Source of the DNA: Bacteroidota bacterium
Lineage (GTDB): Bacteria > Bacteroidota > Ignavibacteria > Kryptoniales > JAKASW01
NCBI GenBank assembly: GCA_021794075.1
Contig: JAJYRM010000043.1
Span: forward strand, 1 to 32,817
Direction: 5' to 3'
DNA: 32,817 bases
This document shows positions 4,119-19,995 of this stretch, piece by piece. A program made the translations under genes and the position numbers. Position 1 is the stretch's first letter. Each line of letters begins with the position of its first letter. The notes below the pieces were generated by a model. It searched no databases. It had not been told where the DNA came from and saw only the letters and a list, made by a program, of their open reading frames with translations.

Positions 4119-5621
4119 CTATCGGGATAATTTCGACGGACGATGTCCGGCCTTCGCCTTGGCGTATTCACCTTTAAAATATTCCGCCGCCGCGCGGTGA
4201 TCGACGATGGGTAAGGGGTAGTCCTTCCCAGGGACAACGCCGGTCTCTTCTTGAAGCGCGGGACTCATTCGGGCCGGTTCGTGTACGTATTTGGGCGGGA
4301 CTTTCCGAAGCTCTGGTACCCATTCCTTTATGTATATCCCTTCCGGATCGAAGCGGCGAGATTGGATTACCGGATTGAATATTCGAAGCGGGCGCGGATC
4401 TACGCCGGTGGATGCGGACCACTGCCAGCCACCGACGTTGGATGCCTTCTCTATGTCCAGAAGCTTCGTAGCGAAGTACATCTCGCCGTGCCGCCAGTCG
4501 ATGAATAAATCTTTTGTTAGGAATGAAGCCGTCACCATCCTCACTCTATTGTGCATCCATCCTGTCGCATTGAGCTGCCGCATGCCGGCGTCCACGAGAG
4601 GAAAGCCGGTTCGCCCCTCTTTCCACGCTTTGAAGGCCCTTTCGTCGAAAGCCCATTTTAACAGGTCGAACTGATTCCTGAAATTTCGCTCAGCGGTGTA
4701 AGGAAAGTGGTACAAGACATGCGTGTAAAATTCTCGCCATATCATCTCTGACAGAAGTTTCTCGGTCGAAGCGGACATTCGCTCGCTGGCGTTCAGAGAC
4801 AATTCGGCAAGGTCCCAATACATTCTCACCGGCGATATACAGCCGAAGCGCAGATAAGGAGACATCTTGCTCGTCCCGTGGACCTGCGGTAGGTCTCTGG
4901 CATCCGCGTAACTGAGAAGCCTTTCCCTGAGAAACGAATTCCATCTATTGGAGGCGTTCTTCTCTCCTCCGCGAACGATCGGGCTGACGATCAACCTTTC
5001 TCTGCCAAGTTCCTCCCCCCCAGGGATTGGCTCGCTCGAGAGCCTCGGAGTTGTAAACCTGGAAGGCTTACCGAGAGGCTTGGGCTTTGGAAGCTTGCGC
5101 CACCTTGCCGCAAAAGGGGAGAAGACGGCGTACGGTCCGCCGTTGGATGTCTTTATATCTTCCGGATGGTGTATGGTTACATCATCGAACGATTTCACGT
5201 CGATGCCATATCCCGAGAGAAACTTCGTAGCGGCGAGGTCGCGCGCCATGGCGCTCGGCTCGTAATCCCTGTCGAAGTAGACAGCGCGTGGATGCGTTTC
5301 TCCAATGATCGTTGAGAAGACATCCGTAAGAGTCCCTGTTCTTACGATGAGTCTCCCGCCGATCTCTTCGATATTTGTTGCGAGATCTTGAAGACACTCC
5401 GCCTGGAAATCGAAAACCGCCCCGTCGCTCTTAATCCCTTCAATCAGCTCCGTGTCCACAATGAAAATCGGAATGACCGGCAGTCCGGTCGAAGCGGCGT
5501 GAAAAAGGGCAGGGTTATCCCTGACTCTGAGGTCTCGCCGAAACCAGCAGATAATTGGGCGCGGATTATCAGACTCAATAACTTCTGTATCCTTTCCAAC
5601 GTCTCGCTTGCGATTTGTCAT
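4119..5621 (-). CDS. phrB: Deoxyribodipyrimidine photolyase (class I CPD photolyase type)
   Basis: This 500-residue flavoprotein should use blue light to split UV-made pyrimidine dimers. The N-terminal antenna-binding alpha/beta domain opens with IICWFRRDLRVRDNPAL (23-39). The C-terminal FAD domain has TSKMSPYLRFGCISPV (250-265), WMHNRVRMVTASFLTKDL (355-372) and GGWQWSASTGVDPRP (397-411). Trp323, Trp376 and Trp399 align by spacing with the electron-transfer triad W306, W359 and W382 of E. coli PhrB. The length fits the family (about 470-500), with a short basic extension at the end (KAGHRPSKLSR). It is the last gene of the nine-gene carotenoid cluster, and its start overlaps the crtZ stop by four bases. 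The sequence does not say whether the antenna is a pterin, a deazaflavin or absent, or settle CPD versus another dimer. Confidence 0.93.
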   Translation of the reverse strand: MTNRKRDVGKDTEVIESDNPRPIICWFRRDLRVRDNPALFHAASTGLPVIPIFIVDTELIEGIKSDGAVFDFQAECLQDLATNIEEIGGRLIVRTGTLTDVFSTIIGETHPRAVYFDRDYEPSAMARDLAATKFLSGYGIDVKSFDDVTIHHPEDIKTSNGGPYAVFSPFAARWRKLPKPKPLGKPSRFTTPRLSSEPIPGGEELGRERLIVSPIVRGGEKNASNRWNSFLRERLLSYADARDLPQVHGTSKMSPYLRFGCISPVRMYWDLAELSLNASERMSASTEKLLSEMIWREFYTHVLYHFPYTAERNFRNQFDLLKWAFDERAFKAWKEGRTGFPLVDAGMRQLNATGWMHNRVRMVTASFLTKDLFIDWRHGEMYFATKLLDIEKASNVGGWQWSASTGVDPRPLRIFNPVIQSRRFDPEGIYIKEWVPELRKVPPKYVHEPARMSPALQEETGVVPGKDYPLPIVDHRAAAEYFKGEYAKAKAGHRPSKLSR

Positions 5622-6094
5622 TTTGAAAGAGTGATCCGTTTGAAGTATCGACGCGAGACAAGAAAAAGGAACCCATAATTGCCTCTCCCGCGGTGATGAT
5701 CAAGATGAGCGGCTATGATCGAGTCAAGATATTTGTTCTTGTAATTGCCCAGAATCCGGAGCCGCTGATGAACCACGATATCGTGGAACCAGAAATACGC
5801 CATCCCATATAGAGCGATTCCCACGCCCGCGAAGAAGAGAAGACTGAACCCGTCCGCCGCTCCCACCGCGATTAGCGCGACGCTCGGCAGGGCAAAGAAA
5901 AGCGCGAATAGGTCGTTCCTCTCGAGTCGATTGTGATCAGGCATGTGGTGATCCTTGTGCAATACCCACAGGAAGCCGTGCATCACGTACTTGTGTGTTG
6001 CCCATGCCGCAGCTTCCATAAGAAGGAAGAAGAACAAAACGATCGACGCTCTCAGGATGAAATCGGTGAGTGTCATGATAATCTTCTCCGTCAA
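5618..6094 (-). CDS. crtZ: Beta-carotene hydroxylase, CrtZ-type di-iron membrane enzyme
   Basis: A 158-residue membrane protein of the fatty acid hydroxylase superfamily, expected to add 3-hydroxyls to beta-ionone rings and turn beta-carotene into cryptoxanthin and zeaxanthin. The histidine clusters that hold the two irons are complete: HKYVMH (34-39), HKDHH (46-50), HDIVVH (104-109) and HLDHH (130-134). Hydrophobic segments lie at about 10-30, 63-80 and 83-104. The start used here overlaps the crtB stop by four bases (ATGA); an internal Met7 is a possible alternative. The C terminus (FLFLVSRRYFKRITLSK) is shorter than in some homologs, but all ligands lie before it. It sits between phytoene synthase and photolyase in the same transcription unit, which supports a carotenoid rather than a lipid substrate. 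A rival call is a generic sterol-desaturase family enzyme. Confidence 0.88.
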   Translation of the reverse strand: MTEKIIMTLTDFILRASIVLFFFLLMEAAAWATHKYVMHGFLWVLHKDHHMPDHNRLERNDLFALFFALPSVALIAVGAADGFSLLFFAGVGIALYGMAYFWFHDIVVHQRLRILGNYKNKYLDSIIAAHLDHHRGRGNYGFLFLVSRRYFKRITLSK

Positions 6095-7050
6095 TATATG
6101 TTGACTTTGTCTGTCTGTTCAGTGATCGCGTTTCCCTGACAGATCTCCTTTTCGCGGGGCGTTGATACCGAGAATTTACTCTTCACCATAATCGCCAATT
6201 TCCCGGGAAGCGGTACCACCGGTCTTGAAGAAAAGACGTCGTAGTTTTGCTTTTCAATCTCCATAAGTATGTTGGCGTAAATTTCCGCGGCGGCCCTGAT
6301 CGAATGCCTCCCTCTTTTGGAAAGCAGCTCGATACCTCGATGAGCGTCCTGGTAATAGCCGCGGGCCCTCGCGATTTCGAACTTCATCAGATCCACGAAG
6401 TGTTCCGTGATTCTGCAGTTCGCTATATCTTCCCGTGTCACGCCGAAGCGTTCCAGGTCGTCGGCGGGGAGGAAAATCTTTCTGTGAAGCTGCCAGTCCT
6501 CGTTGATGTCGCGGAGTATGTTTGTAAGCTGCATCGCGATGCCGAGAGACTCAGCGTGCTGAAATGCGGCTTCATCGCTGAAGCCGATCACATGGGTCAT
6601 CATGACGCCCACGACGGACGCCACCTGGTAACAGAACTTGCGGAGCGAATTGAAGTCGGCGTAAGAATCCGTCTGAATGTCTGACTGAACTCCATCTATG
6701 AGCTCGAGCGGCAGACTTATCGGTATCTCCCTCTCGATCGCGACGTGGACGAACGCGTTCATGATGGGGTTTTGAGACTCCCCGCTATCATATGCCGATC
6801 TCAGTTCGTCCCGCCAGTGTTCCAGCTCTTGTGTTATTTTGTCCACGCTTCTTTTTCTTGGAGAGTCACCGATGTTGTCAGTATAGCGACAGAAGCCGTA
6901 AAGTGCGAACACATCGCGTCTCAAACCGGCAGGCATGAGGAATGTCGATAGATAGAATCCTTTCGAGAAGACTTTCGTCATTTCACGGGACCATTTAAGC
7001 GACAGCTTTAAATGCTCCAGCCTGTCAGAATTCGGAGAAGTGAGATTCAT
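6091..7050 (-). CDS. crtB: Phytoene synthase
   Basis: This 319-residue enzyme condenses two geranylgeranyl diphosphates to phytoene, the first committed step of C40 carotenoid formation. Both aspartate-rich magnesium-diphosphate sites are present: DNIGD at 58-62 (a variant of the more common DDxxD) and DINED at 181-185 within QLTNILRDINEDW. Further family blocks are the FSKGFYLSTFLMP start (28-40), ALYGFCRYTD (49-58) and RKIFLPADDLERFGV (190-204). The tail after about residue 285 is polar and probably disordered. The start codon overlaps the crtI stop by four bases. A squalene or diapophytoene synthase is the main alternative from sequence alone, but the linked crtI, split lycopene cyclase and crtZ favour C40 chemistry. 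No GGPP synthase is encoded in the cluster, so its substrate must come from elsewhere. Confidence 0.93.
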   Translation of the reverse strand: MNLTSPNSDRLEHLKLSLKWSREMTKVFSKGFYLSTFLMPAGLRRDVFALYGFCRYTDNIGDSPRKRSVDKITQELEHWRDELRSAYDSGESQNPIMNAFVHVAIEREIPISLPLELIDGVQSDIQTDSYADFNSLRKFCYQVASVVGVMMTHVIGFSDEAAFQHAESLGIAMQLTNILRDINEDWQLHRKIFLPADDLERFGVTREDIANCRITEHFVDLMKFEIARARGYYQDAHRGIELLSKRGRHSIRAAAEIYANILMEIEKQNYDVFSSRPVVPLPGKLAIMVKSKFSVSTPREKEICQGNAITEQTDKVNIY

Positions 7051-8540
7051 CTTAAATCCTCCTCTATTCTCTCTGCCGCCAGCGAGCCCGAGATGATGAC
7101 CATTGGAATGCCGTTCCCAGGAACGGTGCTCGCGCCGGCGAAATAAACATTGTTAAGTGTCTTCGACTTGTTTTGAGGCCTGAAATAGGCGGATTGGAAG
7201 AAGGAATGGCTTAGCCCAAACGCCGATCCTTTCCAGAGATTGTACTCGTTTGCCCATGCATCCGGCGTAAATGTCTTCTCATAAACTATATGGTCACGGA
7301 TATCAGTCATGCCGAGTCTGTCGGACATCCTGTTTAATATCCTTTCCCTGAATGCGAGCTCATCTCTGTTCCAATCGATATTGGGCGTCTTGTGTGGAAC
7401 GGGGACCAGCACGTAGATGGAATCCCCGCCTTCCGGCGCGAGTGATGCATCGCTCCTGTTTGGAATGCAGACGTAAAAAGCAGGATCCTCCGGGAGTATC
7501 TGCCTTTTGAAAATGTCGTCCAGGTTTAGCTTGTAGTCTCCCGAGAAGACGACGTTGTGATGCAGGAGGTGCTTATACTGCTTGTCCGTGCCGAGGTACA
7601 TCATGTAGGCCGACGACGATGACTTCAACTCACCAGAATTCGGGACAGCGTTTTTCTTGGGCGTTTCGTCGAGGAGCGTCTCGTACGCGTAAGGGAGATC
7701 CGCATTTACAAGGTAGACATCGAAAGTCTCTCTTTCTGAATGATTGATGACAAGAGATGACGCGTGGTCTCCATCCTTCTCAATCTTCGTCACTTCGGAA
7801 TTGTACCTGAATTTAACGCCGTATTCGACAGCGATTTCTTGGATGCTTTCCACAATTTTGTACATTCCCCCCACAGGGAAGTAAATACCCTCGCCGCTTT
7901 CCATGTAAGTCACGACACCGTAGACTGACGGCGCCTCAAAAGGTGATATCCCCAGATACATTGTCTGGAAGCTGAAGAGCATCTTTAGCCGCTCGTCCCG
8001 GAAATAGTTGCTGACCCGCCCGTAAAGTGATCCAAGCATTTTCAATGTTGCTAGGTAATAAAGAGATTTCGGATTTATGAAGTCCGATAGCCGCCTGTAA
8101 TTTCTGTCCACGAAATTTGGGATAGTAAGCCTGTAGAGCCTCGAGAGATAACTGAAGAATTTCAAATACGATTCTATATCCGCGTCACCGTTCAGCTTCT
8201 CCCTGATCTCATTTGTCATCATCGCGATGTTCGTGCTGGAGTTGAACTCCGTTCCGTCCGCGTAGAAGACCCGATAGCTCGGTTCGAGCAGCTTCAGCTC
8301 CATGTAGTCTTCAATATTCTTGTCGAGTTTTTTGAAAAGTTTCCTGAGGGAACTCAGCATAAGGAGAAGGGTTGGGCCGGTGTCAAATTTGAATCCTTCC
8401 TCTGTCACCAGCCTGTTCATCCTTCCTCCCGGCGCCGCGTTCTTTTCGAAGACGGTCACGTCATGGCCGTTCTTGGCAAGCAAAGACGCTGCCGATAAAC
8501 CCGCGAGACCGGCTCCGACAATGGCAATCTTCTTCTTCAT
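7047..8540 (-). CDS. crtI: Phytoene desaturase (CrtI type)
   Basis: A 497-residue FAD-dependent desaturase that introduces conjugated double bonds into phytoene, most likely yielding lycopene for the cyclase encoded upstream. The N-terminal Rossmann dinucleotide site reads [17 protein letters not shown] (5-21), followed by [13 protein letters not shown] (31-43). The C-terminal bacterial phytoene dehydrogenase signature is visible as [20 protein letters not shown]. The length is normal for the family. It lies between folE and crtB, overlapping each by four bases, so the three are probably translated in a coupled way. The number of desaturation steps (neurosporene versus lycopene) cannot be read from the sequence; the presence of a lycopene cyclase in the same unit argues for lycopene. 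Confidence 0.94.
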
Positions 8541-9199
8541 CTTCCCGACCCTTTCAGCGAGTTGAAGAACCTTTCCTGCATCTTCGGGTCGCTTTCAAAA
8601 GCGCCGGTGAAATATGTCGTAGCGGTGGTAGAGTTTTGCTTCTCCACTCCGCGCATCATCATGCACATGTGAGAAGCCTCCGCCGAGACGGCTACTCCCT
8701 TAGGTTCAAGCGTCTCCTGAATTAGATCGGCAACCTGTTTCGTCATCCTCTCCTGCACCTGCAGGCGTCTGGCAAGCGCGTCCACCGCTCGCGGTATTTT
8801 GCTCAAGCCGACGATCTTTCCGTCCGGAATGTAAGCGACATGAACCTTCCCGAAGAAGGGGAGCAGGTGATGCTCGCAGAGCGAATAGAACTCGACGTCC
8901 TTCACAAGCACCATACTATCGAAGTCTTCCTCAAACACCGCGGCTTTCAGGAGTCCCGCGGGATCCGTCTCGTAACCGCTCGTAAGGAAATCCCACGCTT
9001 TCGCCGCGCGCTCCGGAGTTTTCAGAAGTCCCTCCCTGTGAACATTCTCACCTGCCCGAATTATCAGGTCGCGATAACTCGCTTTTGCAATCTCAAGCCC
9101 GGATTCGGAAAGTATCTCGTCCGAGACGATTGTATCTGTAATAAACGACCGGAAACCTTCCCGTTCGTCTCTGCCCAATGTCATTGGGTAGCTGTTCAT
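8537..9199 (-). CDS. folE: GTP cyclohydrolase I
   Basis: This 220-residue enzyme converts GTP to 7,8-dihydroneopterin triphosphate, the first step to folates and other pterins. The zinc ligands fit the E. coli spacing exactly: Cys108 and His111 in [11 protein letters not shown], and Cys179 in HMCMMMRG. The substrate-site blocks [20 protein letters not shown] (117-136) and [15 protein letters not shown] (146-160) are present. The first 35 or so residues are an N-terminal arm of ordinary length. The gene is embedded between crtYd and crtI with four-base overlaps on both sides, which is unusual for a folate gene. The likely reason is co-supply of a reduced folate or pterin when light induces the operon, for example as photolyase antenna cofactor. 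That role is inferred; the enzyme call is secure. Confidence 0.95.
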
Positions 9200-9492
9200 A
9201 TTTGTTCCTTTCTTTTTACAAACTCGTATATGGAAATCGTAGACGTTATGAGTGAAAAACCATAAATAAAATCTTCTACGGGGATGGAGAAAAATCTGAT
9301 GTTGAGCATTTCGGCCGGGTTATAGGTCACAACAGGGAGCGCCGTCAGAATGCCGTTGCAAATCAGGAAACCTAACGTCATGAAGCCGATGAAAATGAGA
9401 AAGTGACGCGTCATGATGATCCTGGTACGAAGAAATAACATATCGAGCGCAAGCGTAACTATCGCGGAAATCACAGCGGGTATCGTGTACAT
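9196..9492 (-). CDS. crtYd: Lycopene cyclase subunit, CrtYd type
   Basis: A 98-residue integral membrane protein with about three hydrophobic segments (3-22, 29-50 and 75-90). The block [15 protein letters not shown] (67-81) is the hallmark of the CrtYd half of the carotenoid cyclase family found in actinobacteria, myxobacteria and, as fused forms, in archaea and fungi. With CrtYc it should cyclise lycopene ends to beta-ionone rings. The start at 9492 lies 22 bases inside the end of crtYc, a longer overlap than elsewhere in the operon, and the stop overlaps folE by four bases. An internal ATG at codon 18 would remove the overlap but also cut the first membrane helix, so the longer form is preferred. 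Confidence 0.85.
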
Positions 9493-9812
9493 TCTCTATA
9501 CACCTTCCGGTATCCCGTCGCTTCCCAAACCAATAGCGATGTAACCGGCACGGCGACGAAAAATAAGATCTCTTCAAGCGGTAGTCCTTCAAACTTGATG
9601 TCCATTACATAGGCTGGGTTGAATCCCCAAACATTTGCGCGTACAGCCAGGATATCCCACAAAGTAAAAACTATCGCGACTATTGCCACCGAGATGATAA
9701 TCGCACCCGCATTTTTCCGGAAGCCGAGTCGTGAGTCACTCATTTTGTAGAGGAAGGGGAAAAGTATTATCAAGTCTACTCCCAGGTACGTGAGATGTCC
9801 AAAGATTTCCAC
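9471..9812 (-). CDS. crtYc: Lycopene cyclase subunit, CrtYc type
   Basis: A 113-residue integral membrane protein, the partner half of the heterodimeric lycopene cyclase. The start GHLTYLGVDLIILFPFLY (5-22) and the blocks FTLWDILAVRANVWGFNP (49-66) and GLPLEEILFFVAVP (76-89) are characteristic of CrtYc domains. Three hydrophobic helices are evident. Translation begins at a GTG (9812-9810) whose G is the last base of the TAG stop of the upstream epimerase gene, giving a TAGTG junction. Together with CrtYd it would convert lycopene through gamma-carotene to beta-carotene; single-ended cyclisation cannot be excluded. The following crtZ suits a beta-ring product. Confidence 0.88.
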   Translation of the reverse strand: MEIFGHLTYLGVDLIILFPFLYKMSDSRLGFRKNAGAIIISVAIVAIVFTLWDILAVRANVWGFNPAYVMDIKFEGLPLEEILFFVAVPVTSLLVWEATGYRKVYRECTRYPL

Positions 9813-10741
9813 TATTCGGTTTCCCCAGTTGAGAGTAGTTGCCGAATCGATCTCTTAAGATCTTCGTGCCCGAAAGTGAAACCTGACGACGCGAGTCGCG
9901 AAGGGACGATGCGCTGACTTGGAAGAACCGTTTCTTCGGCCATCTTCCCCATTACTAATTTCAGGAAAATGGATGGCACTTTTAGAAGCGTGGGGCGCCC
10001 GAGCGCTGCGCCTATCGCGCCGCAAACATCCTTCATACGAGCAGAGTATGGCGAGACAAGGTTATAAATCCCTGTCGATGCGGGGTTCGTAAGGAGAAAG
10101 TAAATAGCCTCAATCTCGTCTAAGTAATGTATCCAGGGAAGCCACTGTTTGCCGGAGCCGAGGACAGCACCGAAAAGGAACTTGTAAGGCATCGCGAGTT
10201 TCGGGAGAGCGCCTCCTCCCGAAGAGAATACGACGCCGGTTCTTATGATTACGCGGCGAACTCCCATCGATTCTACTCCCTTTGTGGAGTCTTCCCATTT
10301 GCTCACAACATCGGCCAGGAATCCTCTCCCTTGCGGAGATGCTTCGTCAAGTATCTCTTCCCCCCTCGTGCCGTAGAATCCCACTGCCGATGCCTGGACG
10401 AGGATCCTCGGCTTGTGCGACATTGAGGCGGTCACATCCATAACAAGTCTCCCTGCGGATAGCCGGCTTTGCAGGATTCGATCACGCTTGTTCGTTGTCC
10501 AGAGAGAAGAACCGATGTTTTCTCCCGCAAGATTTATCATCGCGTCGATTCCGTCAAGCTCTGAGGCGAGTTCGCGGATATTGCCTGCGTCCCACCTTAA
10601 CACGCTGACTTTGTCGCCGAACTCTGACCTCCCTCGTTCGACGTTCCTCGATAACACGATAACAGTGTGTCCCTTTTCTATAAGGGAATGGACGAGACCT
10701 TTTCCAATGTACCCCGTCGCGCCTGTGATGCCGATCTTCAT
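9812..10741 (-). CDS. TIGR01777-family NAD-dependent epimerase/dehydratase
   Basis: A 309-residue extended short-chain dehydrogenase of the TIGR01777 (SDR39U1-like) group. The nucleotide site is GITGATGYIGKGL (3-15). Other family blocks are MINLAGENI (68-76), VQASAVGFYGTRGEE (115-129) and a C-terminal DUF1731-like end (FLKLVMGKMAEETVLPSQR). No reaction has been firmly assigned to most members of this family, so none is claimed here. It is the second gene of the carotenoid cluster: its ATG overlaps the regulator stop by four bases, and its stop shares a base with the crtYc start. In other bacteria such genes recur in light-regulated operons with photolyase and folE, which suggests a link to photoprotection. 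Family call high, function unknown. Confidence 0.88.
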   Translation of the reverse strand: MKIGITGATGYIGKGLVHSLIEKGHTVIVLSRNVERGRSEFGDKVSVLRWDAGNIRELASELDGIDAMINLAGENIGSSLWTTNKRDRILQSRLSAGRLVMDVTASMSHKPRILVQASAVGFYGTRGEEILDEASPQGRGFLADVVSKWEDSTKGVESMGVRRVIIRTGVVFSSGGGALPKLAMPYKFLFGAVLGSGKQWLPWIHYLDEIEAIYFLLTNPASTGIYNLVSPYSARMKDVCGAIGAALGRPTLLKVPSIFLKLVMGKMAEETVLPSQRIVPSRLASSGFTFGHEDLKRSIRQLLSTGETE

Positions 10742-11631: not shown

Positions 11632-11647
11632 TTTGACCGTTATTCCT

Positions 11648-11665
11648 GTTTTGCACGTTTTGCAC
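11648..11665 (-). repeat. Tandem 9-base repeat at the operon start site, operator candidate
   Basis: Two perfect head-to-tail copies of GTTTTGCAC (plus-strand reading; GTGCAAAAC on the coding strand) occupy 11648-11656 and 11657-11665, right over the predicted transcription start. CarH-type regulators are known to bind tandem direct repeats across their promoters, so this is a good candidate for a binding site. The period of 9 differs from the 11 bases reported for Thermus CarH, so the match is only by principle. Confidence 0.5.
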
Positions 11666-11669
11666 GATT

Positions 11670-11698
11670 AATATAGCTGGGCGCCGCGGCGTTGTCAA
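11670..11698 (-). promoter_or_regulatory. Sigma-70-type promoter of the carotenoid/photolyase operon
   Basis: On the minus strand a perfect TTGACA (11698-11693) is followed after 17 bases by TATATT (11675-11670), five of six matches to consensus. The expected start of transcription is near 11663, giving a leader of about 32 bases before the regulator ATG at 11631. The spacer contains a perfect 10-base palindrome, CGCCGCGGCG (11682-11691), in otherwise AT-rich DNA. So strong a core promoter fits a unit held off by a bound repressor. Confidence 0.75.
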
Positions 11699-15636: not shown

Positions 15637-18600
15637 ATGAAAGTACTATACGTAGAAGACGATCAAGCTGATGTCAGGCTTGTAAGGCACGAGCTTAATA
15701 CGGGCTTGGGATTTGAAGTCGATGTGGCGTCTTCTTGTGAAGAGGCGAGGTCGAAACTTGCCGGGAACTCCCGCTACGATGTCGCGCTGGTCGACCTGCG
15801 ACTGCCGGACGGCGACGGAATGTCCGTAGTGAGCGAGATCAGGGAACGCGGACTCCTCATCTGCATTGTCGCCATCACCGGTTATGGGGATGAAGATAAA
15901 GTGGTGTCGGCGTTGAAAGGGGGAGCGGACGATTACGTAGTCAAGACTGGTAGACACTACAGTGAACTCCCTTCGATACTTAAGAGAAACCTGCAGGAGT
16001 ATCGGCTTGGAATGTCAAGAGGCAGCAGCGGATTCCGTTTACTGATTGCGAGCCACGATCGAGCGACGGAACGTCTGTTGAACGATTACTTTGAACGAAG
16101 GGCGTCCCATATCCGGCTGGAAATAGTAAGGAATTTGCCCGACCTGAGAGCATTTGTAGGCGCGGAGAAGGTTCCATTCGATGTCCTGCTTATTGACTAC
16201 GCTTTACCGGGATTGAATTTGCCTGACTTCATCAAGGAATTTCGAGGGGGGAAGGGGCATACCAACCCTATAGTAATAATCGCGGATGAAGGAGATCAGG
16301 AAACTGCAGCGAGTACTCTTAGGATCGGTGTGGACGATTATGTCGTAAAGGGCGATTCCTATCACACGCGATTGCCGGGGATTCTCGAGAGCGCTTATCA
16401 AAAAACGAGACTCCTGCGGGAACAGACAGCGCTCAGGCAAAGCGAAGAAAGATACCGTACGCTCACCGAATTGATCTCCGATTATACCTATGTTCTAGTT
16501 CTCGGCGAGGACGGCAAATTCTCGAGCGAATGGCTGTCAGAAACTTTCGAGACAATTTTCGGCTACAGTCGTGCCGAGATCGTCGATAGGGGCGGATGGC
16601 AGAGCGTAGTTTACGATCCGGACCTTCCTGTCTTGAGAGAGCATTTTAGAAAGGTAATAGAAGGGAATTTTGACGTTGCCGAATTCAGGCTTGTGACCCG
16701 ATCTGGAGAGCCTCGCTGGCTAAGAGACTCGGCCAAGCCGGCATGGGATCCTGTCGCAAAAAGAGTCGTTAGAGTATATGGCGCGGCCCAGGATATGACC
16801 GAGCGAAAGAAAACCGATGACGAGATTCGACGAAGCGAGGCGAAATTCAAGGAGCTTGCCGATTTCCTCCCGCAACCGGTTTTTGAAATAGATGAATCGC
16901 GCAAAATAGGTTTCGCGAACCGTGCATGCTTGGATGTATTTGGGATCTCAGAGGAAGACTTCGCGAGGGGAAGGAGCCCGCTAGACTTCGTGTCTGCCGG
17001 CGACAGAAGAAAAGTTGCTGAAGATATCGAGAAAGTGTTTAGGGGATTGTCCGTGGAGTCGGAACGATACACGGCTATCGACAAGAGCGGGCGGCGTTTT
17101 CCCGTGCTCATCTCGGCAAGCGCGATAGTTCACGACTCTCGAGTGGTCGGCCTTAGAGGTATACTTGTGGATTTGACTGAGCTGGCGGCGGCAAACGAAG
17201 CCCTGGTCGCCAGTGAAAGTAGGTATAGATTTCTTCTCGAGAGTTCAGCCGACGAATTTTTCATGCTTGATGAAAATGGGACCTTCCTGCAGGTCAACGA
17301 AGCGGGATGCGAAAAACTCGGCTACACTCGTGATGAGATTATCGGACAGAATGTAACTAAGATCCTCGCGCCGGAGCTCGCGTCGAGGGCACAGGACAGC
17401 TTGAAGCGGGTGTTTGTCGATTTGGAGTCTACGCTTGAATCCGTACATATGAAGAAGGACGGCACCAGGATACCCGTCGAAGTGCGCGCGAAGGTGGTCG
17501 ATTTCGACGGTAAGAAGGCGCTACTATCGTCCGCGAGAGACTTGACAGAAAGGAAAAAGGCTGAAGACGCGATCGCCGAGCGAAGCAGACAATTGACGAT
17601 TTTGTCTAATGCGACTGTAAAGATAAACGCCGTGTTAAACGTTAGCGATATCCTCCGGACGCTTGTGGCTTCGGGAATTGAGCTCGTGGGCGCGACTGCC
17701 GGAACTGTCGGCCTCATAGAAGACGGGGTGCTCGTGTTCAGGGAATACAACAGGTCTGGAGATGTCATACCAATCGATGTGAGGTTCGCTCCGGGTCAGG
17801 GAACTCCTGGCTTTGTAGTGGCAAGTAAACTTTCGAGGATCAGCAATGACTCGAAACACGACCCGCTCGCGATTAGGGAACTACACGAGAAGTTTGGGAT
17901 ATACAACCTGGTAGACGTCCCGATCGTGAGTAGAAAGGGAGATGTCCTGGGGGCCTTCGCGATTCATAATGGCAAGGATGGAAAACGGTTTACTGAAAGC
18001 GACGTTGAAATGCTTGAGGGACTTGCCGCAAGTGCCGCGGTGGCTTTGGAAAATGCGAGACTCCTTACAGGTATGACCAAGGCCGAGGCGGCTATTCGGG
18101 AAAGTGAAGAGAAATTCAGAACCCTTGTCGAATCATCCATGATAGGAGTCTACATTGTGCAGGAAGGCCGCTTCGTTTACGTCAACCCGGCCATGCAGAG
18201 GATGTTCGGACTATCGGCGAAGGAATTTTTAGCCCTGCGATCGATGATGGATACCGTGGCGATTGAGGACAGGGACTCGGTTTCCGAGAATATGAGGAGG
18301 CTGTTCGACGGCCAAACTGAGTTTTTTAAGTACGACTTCAGCGCGCTGAAGAAGTCGGGCCAAAGATTGCGCGTGGAGATGATCGGCTCGATCACCACTT
18401 ATCACGGCAAGCCCGCAGTTATCGGCACGGCAGAGGACATTACCGAACGCAAGCTCTCCGAGGAAATGCTCCGGCGCTCGGAAGAGAGGTACAGAAATCT
18501 TTTCGAGGAGTCTCTCGATACGATCTATCTCACGACGCCATCCGGAAAAATTCTCGATATTAACTCCGCCGGTGTCAAAATGTTTGGATTTGGTTCAAGA

Positions 18601-19995
18601 GACGAGATGCTTGAACTGGAAAGCGTCGCCGGTCTCTATGAGAATCCGGATGACAGACGCCAGGAGCTTGCCGTCCTCGAAGCTGAAGGTATCATTAGGG
18701 ATAACCAGATTTTGATGAAAAGGAAAGACGGTACCCTCTTGATAGTCCAGGACTCTTCGGCCGTGATTCGAAACCAGGCGGGGGAAATAGTCGCTTATCG
18801 CGGAATACTGAAGGACGTTACAGAAAAAAAGAAACTCGAGGAGCAGCTTCTCCAGTCTCAGAAACTCGAAAGCCTTGGGCAGTTGACCAGTGGAATAGCT
18901 CATGACTTCAACAATGTGCTGGGAGGTATAATAGGATTCACGGAATTGGCGCTCGGCAAAATCGAGAAAACGCACCCTGTTAACAATTACCTGATGCGGA
19001 TCTACGGTCTGGCCGATAGAGCGGCGAAAATTACGAAGCAGCTTCTCGCGTTCGCGCGACGCCAGATATTGATGCCGAAAGATATTGATCTCAATGAACT
19101 CATCGGCAATATGCTGGAATTCCTGAAGCGGTTGTTGGGTGAGCAAATTCGAATAGAGTTCGCTCCGGGCGAGCAAATTAAAACTATTCACGCCGATCCA
19201 TCCCAGATAGAGCAGGTGATTCTAAATCTGGCCGTGAATGCTGGTGACGCTATGCCTGAAGGAGGAGTGCTCGCAATATATATAGGGACCGTTGAGCTGG
19301 ACGACTCCTATTGCCGGACTCACCCGGATGTGAAGCAGGGAGAATATGTCGTGATGAGCGTGAGCGACACTGGAGTTGGCATCGCTCCGGATGCAATTGA
19401 GAAGATTTTCGAGCCGTTCTTTACGACAAAAGAGGTTGGAAAAGGGACTGGACTTGGCTTGTCTGTCGTTCATGGAATAGTCAAACAGCATGGCGGCACC
19501 GTAAACGCTTACAGCGAAACGGGCCGAGGAACGACTTTCAAAGTATATTTTCCTGCCGTCAACCGGGTAGCCGAGCAGGTGCCCGAGAAACATCGTGACC
19601 TGGAGTCAATAAGCAAGGGTTTCGAGACCATTTTGGTGGTGGAGGACAACGATGAGCTGAGAGAATTCATGAAGACGCTTCTGACGGAAAGCGGTTACAC
19701 GGTCCTCACAGCGACTGACGGGGAGGAAGGTCTCGCGGTATTTGACGCCCACCCTCAGGAAATCTCGCTCGTAATTTCAGATGTGGTCATGCCAAATTTG
19801 AATGGCAGGGAATTTAGAAATGCGTTGGAGCAAAAGTATCCAGGCAGGAAATTCCTATTTATAAGCGGCTATACAGACAGCGCGGTGCAGCGCGGATTTG
19901 TGCTGGACGATAAGATTGATTTTCTCCAGAAGCCCTTCAGCGCGTTCGAATTTTCAGATATGGTAAGAAATATCCTGGACCGCTCCTCCCGATAG
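15637..19995 (+). CDS. Multi-PAS/GAF hybrid sensor histidine kinase with three receiver domains
   Basis: A 1452-residue cytosolic signalling protein; no membrane helix is visible. In order: receiver 1 (1-120; acidic pair Glu7-Asp8-Asp9, phospho-Asp53, Lys103), receiver 2 (about 133-255; Asp187, Lys238), PAS domains at about 270-390, 400-515 and 525-640, a GAF domain (about 650-810), PAS domains at about 822-940 and 948-1063, HisKA (about 1075-1145; phospho-His1089 in GIAHDFNN), an HATPase domain (about 1185-1307; N box NLAVNAGDAM, DTGVGIA, GTGLGLSVVHG) and receiver 3 (about 1329-1450; Asp1382, Lys1432). Each PAS unit ends in a DxTERK-like linker. Two N-terminal receivers ahead of five sensor domains suggest that other kinases feed into it. 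The final receiver suggests onward relay to an unlinked phosphotransfer protein, as no response regulator lies nearby. The stimulus is unknown. Confidence 0.93.
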   Translation: MKVLYVEDDQADVRLVRHELNTGLGFEVDVASSCEEARSKLAGNSRYDVALVDLRLPDGDGMSVVSEIRERGLLICIVAITGYGDEDKVVSALKGGADDYVVKTGRHYSELPSILKRNLQEYRLGMSRGSSGFRLLIASHDRATERLLNDYFERRASHIRLEIVRNLPDLRAFVGAEKVPFDVLLIDYALPGLNLPDFIKEFRGGKGHTNPIVIIADEGDQETAASTLRIGVDDYVVKGDSYHTRLPGILESAYQKTRLLREQTALRQSEERYRTLTELISDYTYVLVLGEDGKFSSEWLSETFETIFGYSRAEIVDRGGWQSVVYDPDLPVLREHFRKVIEGNFDVAEFRLVTRSGEPRWLRDSAKPAWDPVAKRVVRVYGAAQDMTERKKTDDEIRRSEAKFKELADFLPQPVFEIDESRKIGFANRACLDVFGISEEDFARGRSPLDFVSAGDRRKVAEDIEKVFRGLSVESERYTAIDKSGRRFPVLISASAIVHDSRVVGLRGILVDLTELAAANEALVASESRYRFLLESSADEFFMLDENGTFLQVNEAGCEKLGYTRDEIIGQNVTKILAPELASRAQDSLKRVFVDLESTLESVHMKKDGTRIPVEVRAKVVDFDGKKALLSSARDLTERKKAEDAIAERSRQLTILSNATVKINAVLNVSDILRTLVASGIELVGATAGTVGLIEDGVLVFREYNRSGDVIPIDVRFAPGQGTPGFVVASKLSRISNDSKHDPLAIRELHEKFGIYNLVDVPIVSRKGDVLGAFAIHNGKDGKRFTESDVEMLEGLAASAAVALENARLLTGMTKAEAAIRESEEKFRTLVESSMIGVYIVQEGRFVYVNPAMQRMFGLSAKEFLALRSMMDTVAIEDRDSVSENMRRLFDGQTEFFKYDFSALKKSGQRLRVEMIGSITTYHGKPAVIGTAEDITERKLSEEMLRRSEERYRNLFEESLDTIYLTTPSGKILDINSAGVKMFGFGSRDEMLELESVAGLYENPDDRRQELAVLEAEGIIRDNQILMKRKDGTLLIVQDSSAVIRNQAGEIVAYRGILKDVTEKKKLEEQLLQSQKLESLGQLTSGIAHDFNNVLGGIIGFTELALGKIEKTHPVNNYLMRIYGLADRAAKITKQLLAFARRQILMPKDIDLNELIGNMLEFLKRLLGEQIRIEFAPGEQIKTIHADPSQIEQVILNLAVNAGDAMPEGGVLAIYIGTVELDDSYCRTHPDVKQGEYVVMSVSDTGVGIAPDAIEKIFEPFFTTKEVGKGTGLGLSVVHGIVKQHGGTVNAYSETGRGTTFKVYFPAVNRVAEQVPEKHRDLESISKGFETILVVEDNDELREFMKTLLTESGYTVLTATDGEEGLAVFDAHPQEISLVISDVVMPNLNGREFRNALEQKYPGRKFLFISGYTDSAVQRGFVLDDKIDFLQKPFSAFEFSDMVRNILDRSSR

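Follow-up and report, generated by a model that had tools for sequence, protein, structure and literature searches.

Tandem 9-bp repeats as a putative operator for a B12 photosensor with a BldC-like DNA-binding domain in Kryptoniales

The tandem 9-bp repeats that follow the promoter of a gene run for carotenoid synthesis, folE and photolyase in a Kryptoniales genome are probably the operator of the regulator encoded downstream, such that an adenosylcobalamin (AdoCbl) tetramer would repress from contiguous 9-bp sites in the dark and would be released by light. We give this reading a probability of roughly 0.76, a value that covers the whole statement, that is, operator, repression by the dark tetramer and release by light jointly. 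The stretch of DNA that was analysed (the window) comprises 32,817 nucleotides of contig JAJYRM010000043.1, and it was compared with orthologous loci, congeneric genomes and known regulators.

The promoter and its 9-bp units

The sequence-only reading had described a minus-strand promoter (TTGACA, a 17-nt spacer and TATATT), which is indeed found at 11698-11670 and scores 11/12, together with two perfect tandem 9-mers, which are present as copies of GTGCAAAAC at 11665-11657 and 11656-11648 on the minus strand. This is the sole perfect adjacent 9-mer tandem in the whole window, where it shows up in two registers; a Markov-1 model predicts a mean of 0.175 per window and P ~0.001 for the 242-nt intergenic region. 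The array exceeds these two 9-mers, since four in-phase 9-bp units occupy 11669-11634 between the -10 hexamer and the start codon of the regulator gene (Table 1). Units 3 and 4 are weak, and the window's own unit 3, which by eye overlaps a possible Shine-Dalgarno sequence (AGGA), scored under the 2-bit unit threshold.

Table 1 Features of the promoter, regulator and downstream genes in the window
Feature	Position	Strand	Basis
-35 hexamer TTGACA	11693..11698	-	identical in 6/6 intact congeneric promoters
Promoter spacer, 17 nt	11692-11676	-	sequence
Palindrome CGCCGCGGCG in spacer	11682..11691	-	chance, outside the system
-10 hexamer TATATT	11670..11675	-	sequence, promoter score, congeneric conservation
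Putative operator unit 1 AATCGTGCA	11661..11669	-	de novo motif, scan, congeneric conservation, in-phase statistics
Putative operator unit 2 AAACGTGCA	11652..11660	-	de novo motif, scan, congeneric conservation, in-phase statistics
Putative operator unit 3, degenerate AAACAGGAA	11643..11651	-	in phase
Putative operator unit 4 TAACGGTCA	11634..11642	-	in phase
Regulator, 297 aa	10738..11631	-	domain searches, sequence, structure prediction
TIGR01777-family oxidoreductase	9812..10741	-	family match
Lycopene cyclase domain protein, first	9471..9812	-	family match
Lycopene cyclase domain protein, second	9196..9492	-	family match
GTP cyclohydrolase I, folE	8537..9199	-	family match
Phytoene desaturase family, crtI-like	7047..8540	-	family match
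Phytoene/squalene synthase family, crtB-like	6091..7050	-	family match
Membrane protein, His-rich motifs, read as crtZ-like hydroxylase	5618..6094	-	by eye and place; no Pfam/NCBIfam match
DNA photolyase	4119..5621	-	family match

A perfect 10-bp palindrome in the spacer, also pointed out from the sequence alone, is present as described (11691-11682). It occurs in the window's promoter only, being absent from all five other intact congeneric promoters, and perfect 10-bp palindromes number 33 in the window against 36 expected. On this non-conservation and the expected number of palindromes it was rejected as an operator, and its position in the spacer is read as a coincidence.

The finding named beforehand as speaking against the repeats was their not being conserved where relatives retain the operon; they are kept in 6/6 congeneric genomes with an intact regulator. 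Across these six promoters (window included), mean pairwise identity is 1.00 for the -35 hexamer, 0.94 for the -10 hexamer, 1.00 for repeat 1 and 0.90 for repeat 2; in the spacer it is 0.51, the same as in the 40 nt upstream (0.51). In a search of 13 congeneric genomes, sites with 0-1 mismatches turned up in all six that have an intact regulator and in 0/7 of the rest, always at this promoter, and no such site elsewhere in the 13 genomes indicated a wider regulon in the window's genus. A 2-mismatch site common to four genomes was set aside because it overlaps an opposite-strand open frame of 297-430 codons. crtB was found in only 4/13 congeneric genomes, all four among the six with an intact regulator, and since the genomes are related and crtB is present in four of these six, the co-occurrence of regulator and site is to be read as an association.

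Several congeneric loci deserve individual description. The regulator gene of G006 (L041, 9960-10500) is broken, with a large internal part lost, and the promoter is short of exactly one 9-bp unit; crtB was not found in this genome. In G002, the regulator was recognised only in part and the site is changed at two positions. In G009 (L171, 10050-10546), the DNA between the first lycopene-cyclase gene and the crtZ-like gene is missing together with the adjoining part of each, and regulator, operator and photolyase are retained. The congeneric locus L051 (Candidatus Kryptoniota) encodes a regulator 76% identical to that of the window.

Period, motif and promoter phase among orthologues

Orthologous loci were taken as the best 30 matches of one search, the best 80 of 102 of a second and 30 matches of a third, for a set of 141 loci. 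The titles of the records include Kryptoniota, Ignavibacteria, Calditrichota, KSB1, Marinimicrobia and Latescibacterota. Two records titled proteobacteria look mis-binned, L072 from its closeness to the Calditrichaceae locus L071 and L094 by impression. No regulator frame was obtained from L011 and L041, which both hold the broken G006 gene, leaving 139 frames; L086 was dropped for too little upstream DNA, and a filter at 85% identity yielded 100 non-redundant upstream regions. Both the KRW pattern used in one orthologue search and the frame pattern select for intact DNA-binding domains, and the presence of KRW in the regulators of 99/100 regions is therefore not an independent result.

A motif-free self-match scan of the 100 regions resolves a 9-base period. 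At lag 9 the mean z is 1.76, with z above 3 in 28 regions and the best lag in 44, and lag 18 follows with a mean z of 1.07 and 7 regions over z 3. Every other lag from 5 to 20 stays at a mean |z| of 0.3 or less, with z above 3 in at most two regions. In coding DNA of these loci, taken as a control, the mean z was 0.47 (2/100 over z 3), and far upstream it was 0.35 (0/95). Expectation-maximisation from random starts arrived at AAACGTTCA, and, from there, at the tandem model AWACGYNCA-AWACGYNCA. At a score of at least 10 bits, this tandem motif is present on the sense strand of 73/100 regions and the antisense strand of 10/100, compared with 1.6 per 100 in shuffles, and some of the 10 antisense matches are sites of divergent genes. 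A motif trained on 41 regions was recovered in 26/44 held-out regions (0.5 expected) and in 3/15 of a further held-out group (0.1 expected); 25/100 of the 226-nt regions are without a site at 10 bits.

Canonical CarH genes of the phylum served for comparison (28/30 loci; L187 and L191 were excluded as matches without a DNA-binding domain), and the tandem 9-bp motif was found in 0/28 of their upstream regions. Taken as an 11-bp control, the same set gave a mean z of 0.09 at lag 11, with 1/28 over z 3, and TnnACA twice at period 11 in 3/28 regions; as no clear lag-11 signal appears, the control shows only the absence of the 9-bp site there, and the CarH genes in the set may not be self-regulated.

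Could the regulator be a conventional CarH, bound to 11-bp TnnACA repeats or to the GC palindrome, and the 9-mers be incidental? The combination of a B12 photosensor with a carotenoid operon is that of CarH systems. However, the 100 orthologue regions give no lag-11 signal (mean z -0.04, 0 over z 3) and carry TnnACA twice at period 11 in just 2/100 cases, for which reason the 11-bp reading was rejected, and the palindrome is not conserved. The protein argues in the same direction, as it scores 64.8 bits with the NCBIfam CarH equivalog NF052513, under the cut-off of 400, and CarH is absent from the sequence matches of its DNA-binding domain at E up to 1. We therefore regard an ordinary CarH as extremely improbable. 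The earlier suggestion that a 9-base period would reflect a binding mode unlike the 11-bp CarH operator gains support, at the level of sequence, from the many orthologues that conserve the period and from a DNA-binding domain of BldC type; the palindrome, offered with it as an alternative element, fell away.

Where a promoter was recognised, the placement of the repeats is tied to it. The 226-nt regions of 75 loci hold a site, and two strict promoter geometries were recognised in this set; their windows of 0-2 and 4-7 nt were picked after the table of sites had been viewed. In the first geometry (24 loci), unit 1 follows the -10 hexamer at a distance of 0 nt in 6 loci, 1 nt in 14 and 2 nt in 4, and the likely start codon lies at no fixed distance (about 29-51 to the nearest upstream ATG in loci that have one). 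In the second (13 loci), the array stops short of the -35 hexamer by 6 nt in 12 cases and by 5 nt in one, and the promoter spacer there is always 17 bp. Arrays hold four units in the first geometry and two in the second, and 38/75 loci have no promoter in either geometry recognised by the rule used. Although weak, the last two units of the four-unit array, which took no part in fitting the motif model, recur in phase: the unit-3 place scores positive in 75% of 24 loci and the unit-4 place in 65% of 23 loci. Places between units 3 and 4 are positive in at most 5% of loci, nearly all out-of-phase places are negative, and a fifth in-phase unit is absent from the first-geometry loci. An array of four units would suit a tetramer.

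An alternative hypothesis places the function of the repeats in the RNA, as elements of the 5' leader that affect translation or stability, and not in the DNA as an operator. The window's repeats do lie in the predicted leader, where the overlap of unit 3 with the possible Shine-Dalgarno sequence would fit such a role. However, the spacing is fixed to the -10 hexamer and not to the ATG, the repeats of the 13 second-geometry loci sit upstream of the -35 hexamer and would be untranscribed from that promoter, and divergent crt-side promoters have repeats too, which together make a leader RNA element very unlikely.

These divergent arrangements occur in L071, L072, L088 and L090, where the promoter opposite the regulator has its own copy just past its -10 hexamer; with copies at both promoters, one intergenic region would hold two operators. 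The first gene on the opposite side reads as crtI in L071 and L072, as a small exported protein ahead of crt genes in L088 and as lycopene cyclase in L090. For 31 distant loci, chosen by hand, the neighbouring genes were checked against those of the window, and the genes beside extra sites were read by eye. Such extra tandem 9-bp sites lie directly upstream of ECF-sigma-factor-like genes at L064 9771 (minus) and L111 8533 (minus), which suggests a cascade. Two more paired sites near repeat-like exported protein genes in the Calditrichaceae record L101 (13823/13887 and 16572/16636) suggest a wider regulon in that record.

The regulator and its gene run

The regulator is composed of a BldC-like winged helix (HTH_17, residues 5-53), a four-helix B12-binding_2 domain and a Rossmann B12-binding domain. 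HTH_17 is the best model for the DNA-binding domain (40.7 bits), with MerR_1 at 23.2 bits just above its cut-off of 21.6, and it matches 28/28 orthologues (MerR_1 matches 27 as well) versus 0/12 canonical CarH proteins. A sequence search with the DNA-binding domain alone, at E up to 1, found CtMerR and BldC. Because a structure search with the whole model was filled by B12 domains, the DNA-binding domain was modelled alone (pLDDT 91); its best structural match is BldC (6amk; Z 9.1, 1.1 A over 51 residues), compared with Z 6.3 for the CarH DNA-binding domain. Eight residues of this domain are invariant in 28 orthologues (T20, K22, R23, W24, T35, G37, H39 and R40) and align with T27, T29, R30, W31, T42, G44, H46 and R47 of BldC, whose numbering was taken from residue names in the literature, a sequence alignment and the BldC sequence. 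According to the literature, these BldC residues include phosphate contacts and the base-reading arginine as well as residues of the head-to-tail interface and the wing. Since several of the eight also occur widely in MerR proteins, they support a likeness to BldC and do not prove it, and the NCBIfam BldC subfamily model NF033787 gives 41.5 bits, under its cut-off of 77.

The sensor part carries all of GxxW, EH, GxxH and GxxxP, named as light-response elements in PMC11796333, and W132, E142, H143 and H180 are the equivalents of CarH W131, E141, H142 and H177. Its structural matches are CtMerR (Z 23.8), photocobilins and CarH, with the fold of the cobalamin-binding part (CBD) at Z ~16 to TtCarH. 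A glutamine at the place of TtCarH H132 makes a bis-His light state unlikely; CtMerR is reported to be without the equivalent histidine as well, and its CBD still monomerises (PMC11796333).

Three orthologues, L010, L131 and L134, keep the 9-bp operator and are without the W-x9-EH B12 signature; they are possibly light-blind descendants. The operator retained in them means that the DNA site is no proof of light control, and that it goes with the DNA-binding domain and not with the sense of light. They thereby lend weight to a reading in which the regulator binds the operator and B12 or light is not the signal in this organism, or in which the protein activates, for which the copy 5-6 bp before the -35 hexamer in 13 loci could position an activator. 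At those loci, activation instead of repression is possible. For the window, however, the intact photosensor elements, the carotenoid, folE and photolyase genes downstream and an array that covers the predicted start site speak against this alternative; we consider it unlikely and retain light-released repression as the preferred reading.

The regulator heads a same-strand run of carotenoid, folE and photolyase genes (Table 1), which are presumably co-transcribed, with folE lying inside the carotenoid/photolyase operon. folE and phrB are reported to be light-induced under a class II LitR in Pseudomonas putida (PMC9758184). Elsewhere in the window, 15637-19995 holds a 1452-aa frame that by eye resembles a multi-sensor hybrid histidine kinase whose two ends bear receiver domains.

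A model of the switch and its relation to known systems

How would such a protein switch its own promoter? By analogy with CarH, CtMerR and BldC, we hypothesize that a CarH-type AdoCbl photosensor is joined to a BldC-like winged helix, each copy of which would read one 9-bp unit, AWACGYNCA, in a head-to-tail arrangement. In the dark, the AdoCbl-bound tetramer would set its DNA-binding domains on contiguous units from the -10 hexamer nearly to the start codon, presumably including units 3 and 4, and would cover the start site, such that the regulator's own gene and the carotenoid, folE and photolyase operon are off. Light would break the Co-C bond, the tetramer would come apart and the operon would be expressed.

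A broader proposal, which we hold tentatively and at slightly under even odds, is that these proteins form a widespread class of B12 light switches, represented in the records with the titles listed above. In this class, light would break a BldC-like head-to-tail row on up to four 9-bp sites, repression in the dark would include promoter bending of the BldC type, and AdoCbl tetramers of one kind would have been combined with heads of two different geometries, 9 and 11 bp. The model proposes the missing operator of CtMerR-type B12 photoreceptors and predicts target genes in mostly uncultured phyla. It would also offer a second operator, of shorter period, for green-light gene switches, and it opens to experiment the question of how a single kind of AdoCbl tetramer accommodates 9-bp heads in one family and 11-bp heads in another.

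In the mostly open-access literature that was searched, no report of a 9-bp-repeat operator for a CarH- or CtMerR-type B12 photosensor was found. A full-length homologue among the known systems is CtMerR of Chloracidobacterium thermophilum (PDB 8jbs/8jbt; E 9.6e-35), which matches in domain order and in kind of DNA-binding domain and shares 27-28% identity in CBD structural alignments. The CBD of CtMerR is described as an AdoCbl tetramer that dissociates in light, with a response to green light; no description of its operator or target genes was found in the accessible text of the same source (PMC11796333). With CarH of Thermus thermophilus (CarH/LitR class I), the regulator shares the AdoCbl photosensor motifs and tandem direct repeats at a carotenoid promoter. 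CarH operators are described as 11-bp repeats (PMC9304148), nnnnTnnACAn, whereas the units here are the 9-bp AWACGYNCA; the DNA-binding domain here is BldC-like (HTH_17), the place of H132 is taken by Q, and the array lies after the -10 hexamer, unlike that of CarH, which lies over the -35. For CarH proteins that are hard to purify, chimeras built on the TtCarH CBD have been employed (PMC9304148).

Streptomyces BldC has the corresponding HTH_17-like winged helix with conserved DNA-contact and interface residues, and each of its protomers is reported to bind one 9-bp direct repeat (PMC5859096). Here the 9-bp direct repeats are a sequence pattern of similar skeleton (CAATTCGGA versus CAAAACGTG), and the operator matrix gives the BldC site whiI_opt, CAATTCGGA-CAATTCGGA, a score of 11.4 bits, which 2% of shuffled units also reach. 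BldC is described as a protein of 68 residues that has no sensor domain and is a monomer in solution (PMC5859096), in contrast to the present regulator of 297 residues with its B12 domains. The proposed switch would pair a known photosensor with a known kind of DNA-binding head on a 9-bp operator.
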